Source: Candidatus Omnitrophota bacterium
GTDB lineage: Bacteria > Hinthialibacterota > Hinthialibacteria > Hinthialibacterales > JAKPRU01
Direction of reading: 5' to 3'
DNA length: 5,342 nucleotides
Assembly: GCA_029570205.1 (NCBI GenBank)
Contig: JAKQSI010000103.1
Coordinates: 1-5,342, forward strand
A program made the translations under genes and the position numbers. Below are positions 51-5,342 of this stretch, piece by piece (position 1 is the stretch's first letter; each line of letters opens with the position of its first letter). A model generated the notes under the pieces. That model made no database searches. It was given only the letters and a program-made list of their open reading frames with translations, and had not been told where the DNA came from.

Positions 51-602
51 TCATGTACTGCTTATGGGGTTCTCTCTGCCTTGCATTGCCCGAATGATCT
101 TCGACGAAGACATGTTTTCCATCTCACTCTGAATCAGGAGAATCGCTCCGCCATATCCTTCCACGAAGCGGCGTTCCACCTGATTGATCGTGTCGATTGA
201 ATAATCACCACCTTTCGCATAGATGTCCGGTTTCAACGTTTTCAGCGCTTCCATCGCGTCCATGCCGATCTCAATAACAAGATCAACACCCTTGATGCTC
301 GCGATAATTCCGGACCGGCACTGGAACTTCAGTACGGGCCGATGAGGCCCCTTCAATGCCTGTACCGCCTTATCCGAGTTGACCCCGACAATCAAAATCG
401 AGCCGGGGATTCGCCGCTTGATCTCCTGCAAATACCGCACATGCCCATGGTGCAATATGTCGAAACATCCGTTCGTCCACACCACCGGCGTCGGCCTGGT
501 CTTGCCGACCGTCGGCAATCGGCAAAAGGTCCGCAGCAGCGGATCTCCCAGGTCGAGAATCCGTTGCTCAGCTGTCAGTTCCGGAAACGCTTCCGTCACC
601 AT
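51..602 (-). CDS. rfaE2: RfaE2/HldE-C-like heptose-1-phosphate nucleotidyltransferase, 183 aa
   Basis: This is a cytidylyltransferase-fold protein closest in motif pattern to the C-terminal adenylyltransferase domain of HldE, which joins ATP and D-glycero-beta-D-manno-heptose 1-phosphate to ADP-heptose for lipopolysaccharide core. Visible motifs are TNGCFDILHHGHVRYL (43-58) with the HxGH nucleotide-binding signature (51-54), GVNSD (73-77), KGPHRP (84-89), Arg96, KGGDY (130-134), the GG of EGYGG (148-152), and SSSKII (165-170) in place of ISSTKI. TagD-type glycerol-3-phosphate cytidylyltransferases lack the KGGDY block. An N-terminal extension of about 38 residues precedes the domain, and no kinase domain is attached. 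ATG 602 is preferred, with a weak GGGA (612-609) 6 bases upstream; GTG 599 is the alternative. It overlaps the holin-like gene by 35 bases. The fold and family are confident; the actual sugar substrate is inferred. Confidence 0.87.
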   Translation of the reverse strand: MVTEAFPELTAEQRILDLGDPLLRTFCRLPTVGKTRPTPVVWTNGCFDILHHGHVRYLQEIKRRIPGSILIVGVNSDKAVQALKGPHRPVLKFQCRSGIIASIKGVDLVIEIGMDAMEALKTLKPDIYAKGGDYSIDTINQVERRFVEGYGGAILLIQSEMENMSSSKIIRAMQGRENPISST

Positions 603-885
603 TGCTTGTCCCGGCCCCCAGCGCTTTCTGCCGATCCGTCAGGAATCCTTTCACGAGGGTTCCGAGATAGACAAATCCGGCAGCGATCGCACTCGTGATG
701 AGTGGTCCAAGCGTCTGGCCGAACATACTGTCAAAGTCGATGCTCTGGATCACTTCTTTGATGCCCGGAATCATTTGATCGATAAACACGAGCAACGCGG
801 CAACAAAAACAAAGAGCATTCTCTTCCATGCGTTCTTGAGATCGGTCTTGTCGATCTCCCATCGTGGAGCATTGGCGTCTTTCAT
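568..885 (-). CDS. Two-helix membrane protein, holin-like, 105 aa
   Basis: Residues 22-38 (RMLFVFVAALLVFIDQM) and 59-79 (LGPLITSAIAAGFVYLGTLVK) are hydrophobic helices joined by a short acidic loop (IKEVIQSIDFDSMF). The N-terminus is charged (KDANAPRWEIDKTDLKNAWK) and the C-terminus is a hydrophilic Gly/Ser/Asp tail after a basic LTDRQKA. Small size, two spans and a charged N-terminus fit class II phage holins, which form holes in the inner membrane to release endolysin. No endolysin is visible in the window, and sequence alone does not separate a holin from other small membrane proteins. ATG 885 has an excellent GGAGG (897-893) 7 bases upstream and overlaps the previous stop as ATGA. The 3' end overlaps the next gene by 35 bases, the longest overlap here. 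Confidence 0.78.
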   Translation of the reverse strand: MKDANAPRWEIDKTDLKNAWKRMLFVFVAALLVFIDQMIPGIKEVIQSIDFDSMFGQTLGPLITSAIAAGFVYLGTLVKGFLTDRQKALGAGTSNGDGSVSGTDS

Positions 886-1256
886 GGTGCTTCCTCCATT
901 TCCAGTATGGCTTGCAGGTGCGGGCGAATCTGTTGGTCCACCCGTTCCCTGATTTCGGAGAGATCCTTGTCACTCAGGTCGAGTTCACGCCGCAACTGCG
1001 TCATCACCGTCGTGTCAGGTCTCTCCATAGCCTGATATACCCGCACATCCCGGAAGAGTTCCTCCAAATACGCCGGGCGTGGGAACTGCACTGAGTTCCC
1101 AGCCAACCGGCGTGAGATTGTCCGAAGCAGTTCCGGCTGGTCCTGCAAAGCCTCGCAGAACACATCAAAACCCGGATTGTCCCTGCGAAGCCGGATTGAA
1201 GCCAACAGCCAGATCAGGAATCCCCGCGTATACCGGGTCGTTGCACCGTCAGTCAC
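882..1256 (-). CDS. Hypothetical protein, 124 aa
   Basis: I do not recognise this protein. It starts at GTG 1256 in a GTGA overlap with the sigma-like gene and ends in an ATGA overlap with the holin-like gene, so it is in the middle of a translationally coupled set. It appears soluble and almost wholly helical. The N-terminal GFLIWLLASIRLRRD (12-26) is a hydrophobic helix ending in basic residues, too short and too charged to be a clear membrane span. Residues 27-80 are amphipathic (DVFCEALQDQPELLRTISRR and LEELFRDVRVYQAM), and the C-terminal third (83-118) is strongly charged (RRELDLSDKDLSEIRERVDQ) and could form a coiled coil. There is one cysteine and no catalytic motif. Placement between a transcription factor and a putative holin suggests a regulatory or lysis-timing accessory, but this is a guess. 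Confidence 0.75.
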   Translation of the reverse strand: MTDGATTRYTRGFLIWLLASIRLRRDNPGFDVFCEALQDQPELLRTISRRLAGNSVQFPRPAYLEELFRDVRVYQAMERPDTTVMTQLRRELDLSDKDLSEIRERVDQQIRPHLQAILEMEEAP

Positions 1257-2005
1257 GTATACATCTCCCTATTCCGTTTTTCGATCATCGCCTCGGTCCA
1301 CCCGTTTTCCCGCCGCAGTTTGTCAATCGCCAACTGCTGGTAATACAACACGTCACAAAAGAACTCGGATCCCGCTTTGGGGAATCGTTTCTGCAAATCG
1401 TATCGGTCCGGCAATCGCCCGTTCCGCTGAAAGAAATCCACAATCCACGGAGCAATTTCCAGCGCTTTATCACCCGTTGCGGCAGCGGCGATCCGCAACT
1501 GCCGACAAAGGACCGGCGTGTAAAGCGGTAGGAATTGCGCCAAGGCATGGCAGCGCGGACACACAGTCTCACCCAAATAAATGCCACACCGTGTATTCTC
1601 TGGAATGAACGCCCCACACCGTGAGCAATTGACGGACCGTTGAGCGATCTCAACCTCCGCAATATCCCGAACATTGTCGGGGTGGTATTCGAGTTCCGGC
1701 GGCAGTTCCCCAGAAAACACACCACAATCGCTCCCAACCCTCTCCAGTAGCGCGAAGGCTTTGTTGCGGAGACAGGTCCACAGGTACGCAACACAGTTCC
1801 TGTCCGGGTCCAGATCAATCCGTCGGAACAGCAGGAGCGCTTCGAGAATGCACTCCTGCTTGATCTCGTCACGAAACACCCGCGTTCGGCGACTCCAGCG
1901 GATCTCGTGGAACACCTTCTCGACCAGGGGATACATTTGCTCAAGGAAAGCGTTCTCATCCCCCGACCGAATCGCGTTATTGATCGCATCCTGGTCATAC
2001 AGCAT
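1253..2005 (-). CDS. Phage-type sigma-70-like factor (region 2, gp55-like) with zinc ribbon, 250 aa
   Basis: Residues 7-90 read like sigma-70 region 2. They start with NAIRSGDENAFLEQMYPLVE, followed by a DEIKQECILEALLLFRRIDL block (46-65) and DPDRNCVAYLWTCLRNKAF (66-84). This parallels the region 2.1-2.3 pattern of ECF sigmas and T4 gp55-like late sigma factors (D-x(2)-Q-E ... A...F-D ... F..Y-x-W/T...). Residues 127-152 form a zinc ribbon: CSRC (127-130), Cys140, CPRC (149-152). The C-terminal part (180-250, with RNGRLPDRYDLQKRF) may hold a helix-turn-helix in place of region 4. The protein would bind core RNA polymerase and direct it to phage promoters. ATG 2005 is the start, with AAGGG (2015-2011) 5 bases upstream and an 11-base overlap with the fusion gene. 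Classification rests on pattern, not alignment; a generic zinc-ribbon DNA-binding protein is the alternative. Confidence 0.62.
   Translation of the reverse strand: MLYDQDAINNAIRSGDENAFLEQMYPLVEKVFHEIRWSRRTRVFRDEIKQECILEALLLFRRIDLDPDRNCVAYLWTCLRNKAFALLERVGSDCGVFSGELPPELEYHPDNVRDIAEVEIAQRSVNCSRCGAFIPENTRCGIYLGETVCPRCHALAQFLPLYTPVLCRQLRIAAAATGDKALEIAPWIVDFFQRNGRLPDRYDLQKRFPKAGSEFFCDVLYYQQLAIDKLRRENGWTEAMIEKRNREMYT
1265..1270 (-). promoter_or_regulatory. Shine-Dalgarno deciding a GTG start
   Basis: AGGGAG lies 8 bases upstream of GTG 1256, inside the last codons of the sigma-like gene, and supports translation restart at the GTGA overlap. Confidence 0.75.
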
Positions 2006-3407
2006 ACGTACCCTTGAACACCATCACGTTGGCATGGTCCGGTTTCAGCCCTTCCGACTGCATGTACGGTTCATACGCTTTCGGTTGCCCCCGATCGGGA
2101 AGCAGGACCACCGCCCGCGCGACCTCGATAAAGCCATGCCGAACAATTTCTTCAGACAAGAATCGCGCGAAGTCGAAATAGCCCGATTGTACGCAGTCAA
2201 ATTCCTGCGCATACACGGCGAAATATCCGTTGGGCCGAAGCACGCGCTTGATCTCGCTGAGGATCGACCCGAACACGACGCGATAATTCGGGCGATCCAA
2301 TTTGCCGAGATTCGTTTCTCGTTCCGAATCCGGGTCAACATCCTTCTTCACCAGGACAGGAATCGGCGGATGCACGAATACCAGATCAACATCACCGTCT
2401 TTGATTTCCAGTGAGGCGGCGTCCATGACTTCCACCGCTTCGTGCCGAGGGCTGAGATCAGAACACCACGCCTGTCGATTCATGATCTTGCAGACATCAA
2501 CCGTTGTTCCGCTACCGGCCATCGGATCGAGAACGACATTGCCTTCCCCGGACCAGTGGGCGACAATCTGTTCGACAACCTGAGCAGGTGTGCTTTCTTC
2601 CCAATCGGGATTACCCGCGTACCGGAACGGCTGTTCAATCGGCCAGACAGACGAAAGAATCCGGCCCTGAATGCGGAGAATCTCGGCCCTGGCCTCCTGC
2701 TCGAACGACTTGCGCCGTCCCTGGATCTCTTCTTCCAGGGTGGCGATTCGGTTCTGAAGATGCTCGTTCGACCGCCGAAGCGTTTCGTTCTCTTTTCGAG
2801 CCTTCTCGTAATCCGGCGGTGTGACCTCGATCTTTTCCGGCTCCAGGGTGCGGAGGGTTTTGACCGTTGCTTCCAGTTCGCGGTTCCGGGTGGACAGATC
2901 CTTGTTCCGCGATTCGGCTTCCTGGGCCTGTTTCCGAACCTTGAGAATCTCTTCGCGGGTCAATTCATGGAGGGTCTTTTTCACCCCGTCGATTTCGACG
3001 GATTCTCCCGCCAGGAGCTTGAGCTGCACGTCCTCCGGCCACTGGCTTGAAATCAGGATGAGGATATCCTCCATCCCACGCCCGAATGCCTCATGGATTT
3101 GCTTTGCCCGTTCCTCATTGCGAGCAAGTGCCATCCATTTGTAAGCCGTGGTTCGCGGAATCCCGACTTCCTCGCGTAGCCAGGACAGGAATACTCCCGT
3201 CGGGAATCTGTCAGTCACATCCAACAAGGCTTTGCCGGCCTCAATGACGTGAAGAACAGCGGTCTGACCATGTTGCCGGACAATCTCGGCCTGACTCCGA
3301 AGCCATATCTGGTCCTCGAAGGTGAGTTGATAGTCCTTCAGCTGTCGAGTACTTACCTCAACCACCGAAGCACCGTTTTCCAATTCAAGCAACGCTGTTT
3401 CGTTCAT
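1995..3407 (-). CDS. DUF3102-like DNA-binding domain / coiled coil / DNA methyltransferase fusion, 470 aa
   Basis: Three parts can be read. Residues 45-115 resemble the DUF3102 domain of phage and plasmid proteins: EAGKALLDVTDRFPTGVFLSWL, then a helix-turn-helix-like EEVGIPRTTAYKWMALA (79-95). Residues 147-248 are rich in Glu/Lys/Arg/Gln with heptad-like hydrophobics and probably form a coiled coil. Residues 250-470 are a Rossmann methyltransferase of the DNA N4-cytosine/N6-adenine type. Motif I is DPMAGSGTT (294-302), which binds S-adenosylmethionine; the acidic motif II residue is Asp317 (CSDLSP); EIKRVLRPNGYFAVY (385-399) is the usual post-motif-IV helix and strand. Motif IV is oddly HPPI (346-349): the Pro-Pro pair is kept but the aromatic residue is Ile. 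Motif order is I then IV, with no obvious target-recognition domain, so base specificity may come from the N-terminal domain, or the domain may bind without modifying. The gene opens the leftmost block behind an operator-like leader. The methyltransferase fold is confident, activity is not. Confidence 0.85.
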   Translation of the reverse strand: MNETALLELENGASVVEVSTRQLKDYQLTFEDQIWLRSQAEIVRQHGQTAVLHVIEAGKALLDVTDRFPTGVFLSWLREEVGIPRTTAYKWMALARNEERAKQIHEAFGRGMEDILILISSQWPEDVQLKLLAGESVEIDGVKKTLHELTREEILKVRKQAQEAESRNKDLSTRNRELEATVKTLRTLEPEKIEVTPPDYEKARKENETLRRSNEHLQNRIATLEEEIQGRRKSFEQEARAEILRIQGRILSSVWPIEQPFRYAGNPDWEESTPAQVVEQIVAHWSGEGNVVLDPMAGSGTTVDVCKIMNRQAWCSDLSPRHEAVEVMDAASLEIKDGDVDLVFVHPPIPVLVKKDVDPDSERETNLGKLDRPNYRVVFGSILSEIKRVLRPNGYFAVYAQEFDCVQSGYFDFARFLSEEIVRHGFIEVARAVVLLPDRGQPKAYEPYMQSEGLKPDHANVMVFKGTYAV

Positions 3408-3413
3408 AATTGT

Positions 3414-3417
3414 CTCC
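3414..3417 (-). promoter_or_regulatory. Shine-Dalgarno deciding the start of the fusion gene
   Basis: GGAG lies 6 bases before ATG 3407. This favours that start over the in-frame ATG codons at 3419, which overlaps the site itself, and 3431, which lies inside the palindrome. Confidence 0.75.
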
Positions 3418-3421
3418 ATTG

Positions 3422-3439
3422 AGTCCCGCATGCGGGACT
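3422..3439. promoter_or_regulatory. 18-bp perfect palindrome in the leader of the fusion gene
   Basis: AGTCCCGCATGCGGGACT is its own reverse complement. In the leftward transcript it would fold into a 7-bp GC-rich stem with a CAUG loop, ending 4 bases before the GGAG ribosome-binding site, so it could affect translation. As DNA it is a natural dimer-binding operator. On the + strand it is followed by TTTTTCTTT and so resembles a terminator for rightward transcription, but no rightward gene is seen. Confidence 0.6.
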
Positions 3440-3443
3440 TTTT

Positions 3444-3520
3444 CTTTGCATTTTGGCCTTTTATGCAAAGCCAAAATACCTGATTTTGCCTCTCAGCCCA
3501 AAATCACTTGTCTTTTTGGC
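3444..3520. repeat. Cluster of alternating TTTTGGC / GCCAAAA inverted elements
   Basis: On the + strand five related elements alternate in direction: TTTTGGC (3451-3457), GCCAAAA (3470-3476), TTTTGCC (3484-3490), GCCCAAAA (3496-3503) and TTTTTGGC (3513-3520). They form inverted repeats: ATTTTGGC (3450-3457) with GCCAAAAT (3470-3477), and TGATTTTG (3481-3488) with CAAAATCA (3499-3506). Interleaved with the first pair is another, CTTTGCAT (3444-3451) with ATGCAAAG (3463-3470). The cluster lies directly upstream of the methyltransferase-fusion gene and covers the promoter candidate. It is probably an operator array; the regulator is unknown, and autoregulation by the downstream DNA-binding protein is a guess. 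Confidence 0.6.
3473..3501 (-). promoter_or_regulatory. Weak sigma-70-like promoter candidate for the methyltransferase/sigma operon
   Basis: Reading leftward, TTGGGC (3501-3496) and TATTTT (3478-3473) are separated by 17 bases. They match the -35 and -10 consensus at 3 of 6 and 4 of 6 positions. The spacing is ideal but the hexamers are weak. It is supported mainly by position, in the only clear gap before a five-gene block, and by overlap with the inverted elements. A phage-specific promoter would not need to match this consensus. Confidence 0.3.
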
Positions 3521-3666
3521 TCAATTTCGCACTCAGAACGCAAGACCTGTTCTTTGCGGCCCTGAGCGTCTTCAACGATCAGCGTGTCGCCGAAATCCTC
3601 GACCAACCACCGCTGAACCTTCTCGCGATTTCTCTTGACCCACACCATGACCGGGTTACTGCCCAT
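3493..3666 (-). CDS. Small hypothetical protein, 57 aa
   Basis: A short frame runs from ATG 3666 to TGA 3495-3493 and fills what would otherwise be an intergenic gap. It begins MGSNPVMVWVKRNREKV and continues through RWLVEDFGDTLIVEDAQGRK to ECEIEPKRQVILG. The composition is that of a real small protein: a basic helix (WVKRNREKVQRWL), then a likely beta hairpin (TLIVEDAQGRKEQVL), resembling a small SH3-like or KOW-like fold, though I cannot assign a family. The start at 3666 is preferred because GAGG (3680-3677) lies 10 bases upstream and it gives an 11-base overlap with the previous gene, as seen elsewhere in this window. ATG 3648 is the alternative and has no good ribosome-binding site. Its 3' end enters the repeat-rich control region of the next gene. 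Confidence 0.6.
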   Translation of the reverse strand: MGSNPVMVWVKRNREKVQRWLVEDFGDTLIVEDAQGRKEQVLRSECEIEPKRQVILG

Positions 3667-4354
3667 CTTTGGAAAACCTCGGTTTCTTCGGTTTCGGTTC
3701 GATCAGTTCCGGCGGATCAGTCTCGTCAGCCTCATCCGAAGGCTCATCCACACCCGTTTCGGGAAAGGATCGTCCCGGCATTGGAGCAACCCGCTCTTTC
3801 CTCTCTTCCGTTTTCCTGAGAATGCCGCGCATATACTCGGCGGCAGCGAAAATGACGGGAACAATCAGAGGTTCGTTCCCCTCCTGCCGAATCAAGTGTT
3901 TGTTGTCTTTTCCGCTGCCACGAAGCAACACTCCCTCATCGACCAGAATGGTCTCCGGGGGACCCGGCACGTTCCGTCTGAGGAACGCGATAAGGTCCAG
4001 AATGTTTGGGATCCGAATCGTTTCAACGGGCCGCAACCCTCTTTCAAGATCGTGATCCATGCGCGGCTTGCATCCGTAGTCGTACGCTACCTGCAAATTC
4101 CATTTCGCTTCGCCGTCAATGTCCTGTCCCGGATTATCGGGATCGAATACCTGCAGGAACCGGACATGCTGATCGTGGCGATCATCCCAGAACTCCTGTA
4201 CCCGGTTCACCACTGCCGGGCCAAGCGGCTCCGTACCGTTTGCCTGGAGAATCAGAACGCACTCTCCAACCTCTGCTTTCATCGGGTAGCCGCCTTCCGC
4301 CAACACTTTCAAATCACCCAGAAGCCGAATTCTTGTTCGTGGATCTAATTTCAC
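3656..4354 (-). CDS. Hypothetical protein, 232 aa, with acidic/proline-rich C-terminus
   Basis: I do not recognise this protein. It starts at GTG 4354 behind an excellent AAGGAG. Residues 1-180 look like a folded domain of mixed strands and helices. Readable blocks are ECVLILQANG (31-40), a Trp/Asp/His-rich stretch EFWDDRHDQHVRF (54-66), IPNILDLIAFLRR (115-127) and EPLIVPVIFAAAEYMRGILR (161-180). The last stretch is hydrophobic but is better read as a strand plus amphipathic helix than a membrane span. Residues 181-232 are low in complexity and probably disordered: a KTEERKER helix, then an acidic Asp/Glu/Pro run (200-219), then a basic end (KPKKPRFSK). There is no cysteine cluster or known catalytic motif. 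It is preceded by the parS-like gap and its 3' end overlaps the small gene at 3666 by 11 bases. Confidence 0.8.
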   Translation of the reverse strand: MKLDPRTRIRLLGDLKVLAEGGYPMKAEVGECVLILQANGTEPLGPAVVNRVQEFWDDRHDQHVRFLQVFDPDNPGQDIDGEAKWNLQVAYDYGCKPRMDHDLERGLRPVETIRIPNILDLIAFLRRNVPGPPETILVDEGVLLRGSGKDNKHLIRQEGNEPLIVPVIFAAAEYMRGILRKTEERKERVAPMPGRSFPETGVDEPSDEADETDPPELIEPKPKKPRFSKDGQ

Positions 4355-4361
4355 CGCTGTT

Positions 4362-4367
4362 CTCCTT
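4362..4367 (-). promoter_or_regulatory. Strong Shine-Dalgarno deciding a GTG start
   Basis: AAGGAG lies 7 bases upstream of GTG 4354 and fixes that non-ATG codon as the start of the 232-aa protein. It lies 11 bases beyond the parS-like palindrome, so a protein bound there would sit right at the start of this gene. Confidence 0.85.
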
Positions 4368-4378
4368 CCAATCTCTAT

Positions 4379-4394
4379 CGTTTCACGTGAAACG
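4379..4394. promoter_or_regulatory. parS: parS-like 16-bp perfect palindrome (putative ParB-binding site)
   Basis: CGTTTCACGTGAAACG is a perfect palindrome. Its inner 14 bases, GTTTCACGTGAAAC, are identical to the core of the bacterial chromosomal parS consensus (TGTTTCACGTGAAACA); only the two outermost bases differ. It lies in the 61-base gap between a stop codon (4416) and the Shine-Dalgarno of the next gene (4367-4362), so it overlaps no coding sequence. By family knowledge ParB loads on such sites as a CTP-dependent clamp. Use by a host or element-encoded ParB is inferred. It could instead be an operator for a local regulator with a CACGTG core. Confidence 0.72.
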
Positions 4395-4415
4395 CTAGTT
4401 CTCTGATCTGATCAA

Positions 4416-4688
4416 CTACTCATTTCTCTTCGGACCAGTATCGCCTTCGCCAAGCCATCGGACCGGCGGTCCCTGTGGTTTGGGAGCGCCCGGTGGTTTT
4501 GGTGTTGATGGCGCTTCGTTTACGCCGCCCTTCTTTACCTTCCCTTCCTGCAGGACAGTCATTTGCCCGCCGGGTAGTCGTGGGGATTTGACAAAGAACT
4601 TGTGTACCCATTCCGCGGTGGGAATCAGGTTGCACACCATAATCCCCACGACAAACCCGAAAACGGCCCCTTCGTAAAATATGTTCAC
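4416..4688 (-). CDS. Small single-pass membrane protein with proline-rich tail, 90 aa
   Basis: The N-terminus (residues 5-24, YEGAVFGFVVGIMVCNLIPT) is one hydrophobic, glycine-containing helix long enough to cross the membrane. There is no signal-peptidase site, so it is probably a membrane anchor. After a short amphipathic stretch (AEWVHKFFVK) come a basic linker and a proline/glycine-rich tail (residues 58-76, with TPKPPGAPKPQGPP) that is probably disordered. The start is taken as GTG 4688, giving a GTGA overlap with the preceding gene, with GGAG (4699-4696) 7 bases upstream. A longer frame to 4775 exists but would overlap the previous gene by 91 bases and has no better start. Function is unknown. 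An inner-membrane spanin, a holin accessory or another phage membrane protein is possible, but nothing in the sequence decides between them. Confidence 0.68.
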   Translation of the reverse strand: MNIFYEGAVFGFVVGIMVCNLIPTAEWVHKFFVKSPRLPGGQMTVLQEGKVKKGGVNEAPSTPKPPGAPKPQGPPVRWLGEGDTGPKRNE

Positions 4689-5020
4689 CACGTTACTCCG
4701 TTCATGTGCCCCGCCTTGCGCCGCGCGCGTTTTATCTCCGCGCAGAGATGTTCCGCGGCCCGGATCGCACTGCATACTGCCTCAACGGCCTGGGGATGCT
4801 CCTGTTCGATCAAAATGTCCCGGAACCGGCGCAGATTGGCTACAACCTGAACCTGGTGCGCTTCGATCCGACTGAACACCGTTTCCGCCGTCCGCTTCGT
4901 TTCCTTACCGTCAATCATCGTAAAGGCTCGATCCATATCGCCGAGCAAACGCTTTGACGCACCTGCCTCACCTGCCACAAGCGACGTGTCCGTCATCACT
5001 CCATGGGGTAATCCGACCAT
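4685..5020 (-). CDS. Hypothetical helical protein, 111 aa
   Basis: I do not recognise this protein. It is predicted to be soluble and mostly helical: residues 40-104 alternate charged and hydrophobic positions (ETVFSRIEAHQVQVVANL, then RFRDILIEQEHPQAVEAV), and residues 96-102 (EIKRARR) are basic. No membrane segment, cysteine cluster or catalytic motif is visible. The start was chosen at ATG 5020 because AAAGGA (5034-5029) sits 8 bases upstream. ATG codons at 5029 and 5026 are too close to that site, and the 5083 start would overlap the exonuclease by 58 bases without need. The gene follows the exonuclease directly and its TGA overlaps the start of the next gene (GTGA), so these three genes are probably translated from one message. 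Confidence 0.7.
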   Translation of the reverse strand: MVGLPHGVMTDTSLVAGEAGASKRLLGDMDRAFTMIDGKETKRTAETVFSRIEAHQVQVVANLRRFRDILIEQEHPQAVEAVCSAIRAAEHLCAEIKRARRKAGHMNGVTW

Positions 5021-5025
5021 TTCCA

Positions 5026-5342
5026 TCATCCTTTCAGATATCGTTCCCACCTGTCGCGCAGATGGGGAAAGATTTCGATACACGCCTGAATATCGTTCAG
5101 GGCGCGATGGGTTTCCTGAAATTCTCTGCCGGTAAAGAATGAGTACGCTTCACCAAGTGTGGGCCATTTGTAATCGCGGTATCCGGGATTCGGCGGAAGT
5201 TTCACAATATCTTTCGATTCCAACATGGTGCAGAACATGGATTTCTCCAGGTAGACCTTCGGATAATCCAACCGGCTGCACTCAATGTCGAGCATCGCAA
5301 TATCAAAGGAAATGTTATGGCCGACGATTAGATCGGCTTTCC
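5026..5342 (-). CDS. DnaQ-like DEDDh 3'-5' exonuclease, C-terminal part (5' end outside window)
   Basis: The reading frame is open to the window edge, so the N-terminus with the Exo I motif (DxE) is missing; 104 residues are visible. Two of the three family motifs can be read. Exo II is GHNISFDIAML at visible residues 7-17, with catalytic Asp13. Exo III is HRALNDIQACIEIF at 78-91, which fits HxAxxD (His78, Asp83) and puts the protein in the DEDDh subgroup with the DNA polymerase III epsilon subunit and RNase T. The segment between them (FCTML... KWPTLGEAYSFF) matches the usual DnaQ spacer. Such enzymes remove nucleotides from 3' ends using two metal ions; phages use them in replication, repair or nucleotide recycling. 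The gene ends in TGA, overlapping ATG codons of the next gene. The fold is confident, the exact substrate is not. A fusion to other domains upstream cannot be excluded. Confidence 0.88.
   Translation of the reverse strand, partial: KADLIVGHNISFDIAMLDIECSRLDYPKVYLEKSMFCTMLESKDIVKLPPNPGYRDYKWPTLGEAYSFFTGREFQETHRALNDIQACIEIFPHLRDRWERYLKG

Follow-up and report, generated by a model that had tools for sequence, protein, structure and literature searches.

ParB is a CTP-dependent clamp that loads at parS and slides over the neighbouring DNA. The closest described phage case is phi29, which carries four one-mismatch sites TGTTTCACGTGGAACA, and B103 carries one exact consensus site. Spo0J has been implicated in entrapment of the phi29 genome in the spore (Meijer et al. 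2005, according to the citing text of PMC9437464). Outside phages, the parS-like sites of SGI1 hijack the ParABS system of the IncC plasmid (PMC10954446). ParB can also affect transcription; the P. aeruginosa protein represses genes beside the intergenic sites parS3 and parS4 (reviewed in PMC7022226). We regard phi29 as a precedent, and the breadth of the phenomenon across phages looks unreported in the searchable literature. Among the openly searchable papers, no survey of phage genomes for parS turned up.

The stretch analysed here (the window) is an entire contig, C75, of 5342 bp, from a 4.39-Mb metagenome bin of 131 contigs. It carries a parS-type site on tailed-phage sequence, one of the features of phi29-type use of a host ParB. 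Like phi29, the window phage is a tailed-phage genome with a chromosomal-type parS site. However, the near-consensus sites of phi29 are several and dispersed, its small genome is protein-primed and its host sporulates, whereas one exact core flanked by C..G is known from the window phage, which is incompletely assembled and belongs to an uncultured lineage. The likeness to SGI1 is that a mobile element copies the centromere site of another replicon and uses its ParB for its own stability (PMC10954446), but SGI1, an integrative mobilizable element, takes ParB from a helper plasmid rather than from the host chromosome. With the chromosomal ParABS systems the window site shares an identical 14-bp core; it differs in lying on a phage contig, in being single as far as seen, and in having C..G instead of T..A outside the core.

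The site and its surroundings

All likely genes of the window are on the minus strand. The features are as follows:

4379..4394, no strand: parS-type site CGTTTCACGTGAAACG, with the exact 14-bp core at 4380-4393
4355..4415, no strand: 61-bp gap with the site, between co-directional genes (sequence and ORF reading)
3656..4354, minus strand: 232-aa protein starting with GTG, the next one downstream of the site; orphan
4416..4775, minus strand: 119-aa ORF upstream of the site, which probably begins further inside; no family given
5026..5340, minus strand: 3'-5' exonuclease domain, truncated by the contig end (RNase_T; PHROG DNA polymerase exonuclease subunit)
1995..3407, minus strand: DUF3102-like N part and N6/N4-methyltransferase-like C part (family matches)
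1253..2005, minus strand: 250-aa protein, 73% identical on the related contig C468; no family over the cut-off
882..1256, minus strand: Mor-like (Mu middle operon regulator) activator, slightly under the Pfam cut-off

The earlier note had described a perfect 16-bp palindrome with the parS core inside it, and both the palindrome CGTTTCACGTGAAACG and the chromosomal core GTTTCACGTGAAAC proved exact. Its estimate that such a match is expected about 2e-5 times by chance is close to the 1.5e-5 per window that we calculated from base composition; the corresponding expectation for exact cores is 0.012 per 4.39-Mb bin. A motif scan found no second match to GTTTCACGTGAAAC at three or fewer mismatches elsewhere in the window. 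A palindrome by itself is not rare here, because the window has a second perfect one, of 18 bp, at 3422-3439. On the sequence, the improbable part is thus the identity to the parS core rather than the palindromy.

This second palindrome (AGTCCCGCATGCGGGACT) precedes the probable start of the methyltransferase-like gene, at 3407, by 15 bp, and it also resembles a plus-strand terminator. The equivalent place on the related contig G001:C468 (44310-44333, in L251) is occupied by a 24-bp perfect palindrome, TTTACTGCCACATGTGGCAGTAAA. The position is kept between the two, and the sequences are unrelated.

The location in a short intergenic gap, also claimed previously, was confirmed. The 61-bp gap is bounded by two minus-strand genes and contains the Shine-Dalgarno sequence AAGGAGA at about 4361-4367 (minus strand), ahead of the GTG start at 4354. 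The palindrome is 24 bp from the start codon and, as had been noted, about 11 bp from the Shine-Dalgarno sequence. A promoter scan of the surroundings of the site gave no sigma-70-like promoter. An RNA hairpin reading of the site was rejected, the 76-nt leader folding no better than shuffles (z 0.57).

The 16-bp parS consensus TGTTTCACGTGAAACA includes an outer T..A pair, which is common but not necessarily essential. The window site has C..G at these positions and does not match that consensus. All chromosomal parS cores found in this group have T..A and none has C..G. The comparison with the parS of the predicted host, suggested in the earlier note, therefore had a divided outcome: the 14-bp core is identical, but the outer pair is C..G against T..A in the host.

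The phage and the candidate readers of the site

The cluster had been called phage-like, and a related contig bears this out. Window positions 82-3666 match, at about 76%, part of the 44.7-kb contig G001:C468 from a different bin of the same genus; this contig encodes a major head protein and a head maturation protease and carries a tape-measure-like gene. A second contig of the window's own bin, C110, aligns at 75% with another part of C468 and carries tape-measure-like and other structural (tail) genes. Since C75 and C110 match one phage contig, they are very probably parts of one phage, and the gene content identifies this element as a tailed phage. Two bins of one genus hold related phages, which supports that genus as the host.

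The methyltransferase-like protein, whose gene probably starts at 3407 (MNETALL), is 83% identical to the protein on C468, and searches for its relatives gave that contig alone, apart from short partial matches. The 250-aa protein looks like sigma-factor region 2, judged by eye. By its family matches the exonuclease belongs to the phage context. The 232-aa protein had no relative in Pfam, PHROGs, GenBank phages, IMG/VR, GTDB contigs or 60 genome relatives, and neither it nor the exonuclease was found elsewhere in the bin of C468. At the other end of the window (51-602) is a cytidylyltransferase-like protein that resembles heptose-1-phosphate adenylyltransferase and is conserved on C468; it is possibly a surface-sugar or cofactor gene of the phage.

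Family searches of the window proteins revealed no par genes. The host bin has a single ParB with all three domains (ParB_N, HTH_ParB and ParB_C), encoded on C90 beside parA and rsmG, so that a cognate HTH_ParB-bearing ParB accompanies the chromosomal-type site. This protein aligns to Caulobacter ParB and Spo0J. The positions R173 and G201 mark reading of parS rather than of Noc sites (PMC7383237), and the host ParB has R and G at these positions in the alignment (mapped by eye). Two exact parS cores at the host rsmG-parA-parB locus, flanking parA/rsmG, have the same 14 bp as the window site, and the bin has no exact core besides these three. The search for further copies that had been recommended thus returned two cores in the bin, both beside the chromosomal parAB, but none other on the phage-side sequence of C468. 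This 44.7-kb contig has no parS at three or fewer mismatches; it ends at the equivalent of about window 3670, about 700 bp before the place of the site.

ParB_N proteins are encoded on C110 and C468, and a domain search found neither the DNA-reading HTH_ParB nor the dimerisation domain ParB_C in them; it is unlikely that they read parS. Two of them, on C468 (13248-14045 and 14634-15215 in L252), are separated by one gene and have near-identical N-terminal halves, and look like a recent duplication. The phage-side proteins lack HTH_ParB, and host ParB is therefore the likely reader of the window site. The proposal that the element borrows host ParB now appears probable, given these proteins on the phage side and a canonical ParB in the host.

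It had alternatively been suggested that the element encodes a chromosomal-type ParB of its own, as a phage-plasmid with its own ParABS elsewhere in the genome would. The incomplete phage assembly and the ParB_N proteins themselves speak for this reading. However, these proteins lack the other two ParB domains, full-length ParB was absent from the 20 scanned proteins of C468 (0/20), and the bin has two ParB_N matches, with the chromosomal protein beside rsmG-parA as its sole full-length ParB. Across the phage-side sequence examined, with the phage in pieces (C75 and C110), no parS-reading ParB was found. A phage-encoded system is accordingly disfavoured, and we consider it the least probable of the alternatives weighed here.

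parS-type sites in other phages and viruses

The same 16-mer as in the window occurs in the Arthrobacter phage Bennie, in an intergenic gap with DNA polymerase I on one side and a purA-like gene on the other. Nine Korravirus genomes of Arthrobacter were searched whole, and all nine (9/9) have two exact cores, which in Bennie are at about 23.6 and 34.8 kb; most also have a third core with one mismatch. Most of the Korravirus sites are about 20-30 bp upstream of the purA-like gene. Both C..G and T..A outer pairs occur in Arthrobacter phages at a single conserved position; Joann, a Korravirus, has T..A where the other genomes have C..G. The outer pair was changed on both sides, so palindromy was kept. 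No exact core was found in a search of three Microbacterium phages related to Korravirus.

The CGTTTCACGTGAAACG 16-mer was present in at least 120 stretches of IMG/VR, whereas control palindromes of equal base composition were present in 1 (same dinucleotides as CGTTTCACGTGAAACG), 2 (same inner TCACGTGA) and 5 (inner TTTCACGTGAAA retained, outer two bases swapped). The motif thus recurs in unrelated viruses at least 24 times as often as the best matched control, and this type of site is strongly over-represented in viruses.

We examined a sample of 237 viral loci among the matches listed for the 14-mer and 16-mer scans, falling into 198 context clusters. In the 14-mer sample, 96 of 147 sites (65%, against 25% expected) had a complementary pair flanking the 14-mer, nearly always T..A; C..G was rare there (3 of 120 contigs among the matches listed). 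In the sampled loci 100 of 278 sites (36%) were intergenic, compared with 7-8% of bases. IMG/VR matches may include host fragments. Near the site, a ParB relative was detected in two loci (2/237) and neither parA nor rsmG in any (0/237), which argues against fragments from near a host origin. When 50 large viral records were searched whole, ParB_N scored over the cut-off in six (6/50) and one terminase family was found in 25 (25/50).

Gap sites followed gap length. By counts that rest on crude ORF calls, 57 sites were in co-directional, 19 in convergent and 15 in divergent gaps, versus 54.3, 17.2 and 19.5 expected from gap length, and 25 of 60 sites were 5-45 bp before starts versus 22.3 expected, which is no enrichment.

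Some viral contigs carry several cores. L038 (2658-3443) and L083 (10536-11461) each have five parS cores in about 0.8-0.9 kb; these arrays are centromere-like and adjoin similar terminase-sized genes. L026 and L094 (IMG/VR), two related-looking small-phage contigs, have paired cores about 24-29 bp apart, located at gene ends or in gaps.

Possible roles of the site

The window site is probably a genuine parS through which the phage borrows host ParB, most likely for positioning or partition of its DNA. The host ParB clamp would load at the site on the phage genome and slide onto the flanking DNA; the phage sequence so far lacks a parS-reading ParB, and the clamp would be the borrowed host protein. 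Loaded ParB would tie the intracellular phage DNA to the host ParA/SMC-linked machinery of origin segregation, and as a result the phage DNA may be given a position, be compacted or be inherited by a daughter cell during a slow or dormant infection. This would match the role proposed for Spo0J with phi29 DNA in sporulation and the one shown for SGI1 with the ParB of its helper plasmid. We infer both that host ParB binds the site and that partition or positioning is the benefit.

Two other readings place the effect at the adjacent genes. Host ParB at the site may control local transcription according to the host cell-cycle state, through a roadblock or a spreading zone at the 5' end of the 232-aa gene that acts on this gene and on the operon that follows. 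The short distances from the site to the start codon and the Shine-Dalgarno sequence would suit this, as would the regulatory look of the genes behind it (methyltransferase-like, sigma-like and Mor-like), the similar spacing of most Korravirus sites ahead of the purA-like gene, and the repression by ParB at P. aeruginosa parS3 and parS4 (PMC7022226). However, no sigma-70-like promoter was recovered at the window site, and the viral gap sites track gap length by type, with no excess just before starts. Transcriptional control of the gene at 4354, as raised in the earlier note, is thus possible at this particular gap but has no counterpart in a promoter-gap or start-proximal preference across the viral loci, and we think it unlikely. 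Because the sites favour neither a gap type nor a start-proximal position, a genome-level loading site fits better than an operator, and positioning or partition of phage DNA is more likely than an operator role.

The palindrome might instead be the operator of a dimeric phage or host regulator unrelated to ParB, its identity to parS being a coincidence. The 18-bp palindrome, 15 bp ahead of the next long gene, together with the different 24-bp one there in the relative, indicates that this phage lineage puts palindromes before genes. Yet only about one random palindrome in 16,000 would match the 7-bp half-site of parS, and the recurrence of the exact motif in unrelated viruses far exceeds that of every matched control; this reading is quite improbable.

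The preferred reading, borrowing of host ParB for positioning or partition, may extend well past this locus. In viral sequences parS greatly outnumbers the matched control sequences, and many phages therefore probably borrow the host machinery. That carriage of a host centromere site in the absence of an own ParB is a widespread and repeatedly evolved trait of tailed phages, which would recruit ParB, and ParA and SMC by way of it, so as to place, fold or passively inherit their DNA, is a proposal that we hold with about even confidence. The Korravirus genomes of Arthrobacter are a named, cultured set of phages that carry the sites, and the window adds to the parS-bearing phages an uncultured lineage for which a single bin contains both the host and the site. 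If the proposal is true, chromosome segregation would be a common phage target, more than a curiosity of phi29, with consequences for the way in which phage DNA is positioned, compacted or carried through slow growth without integration.
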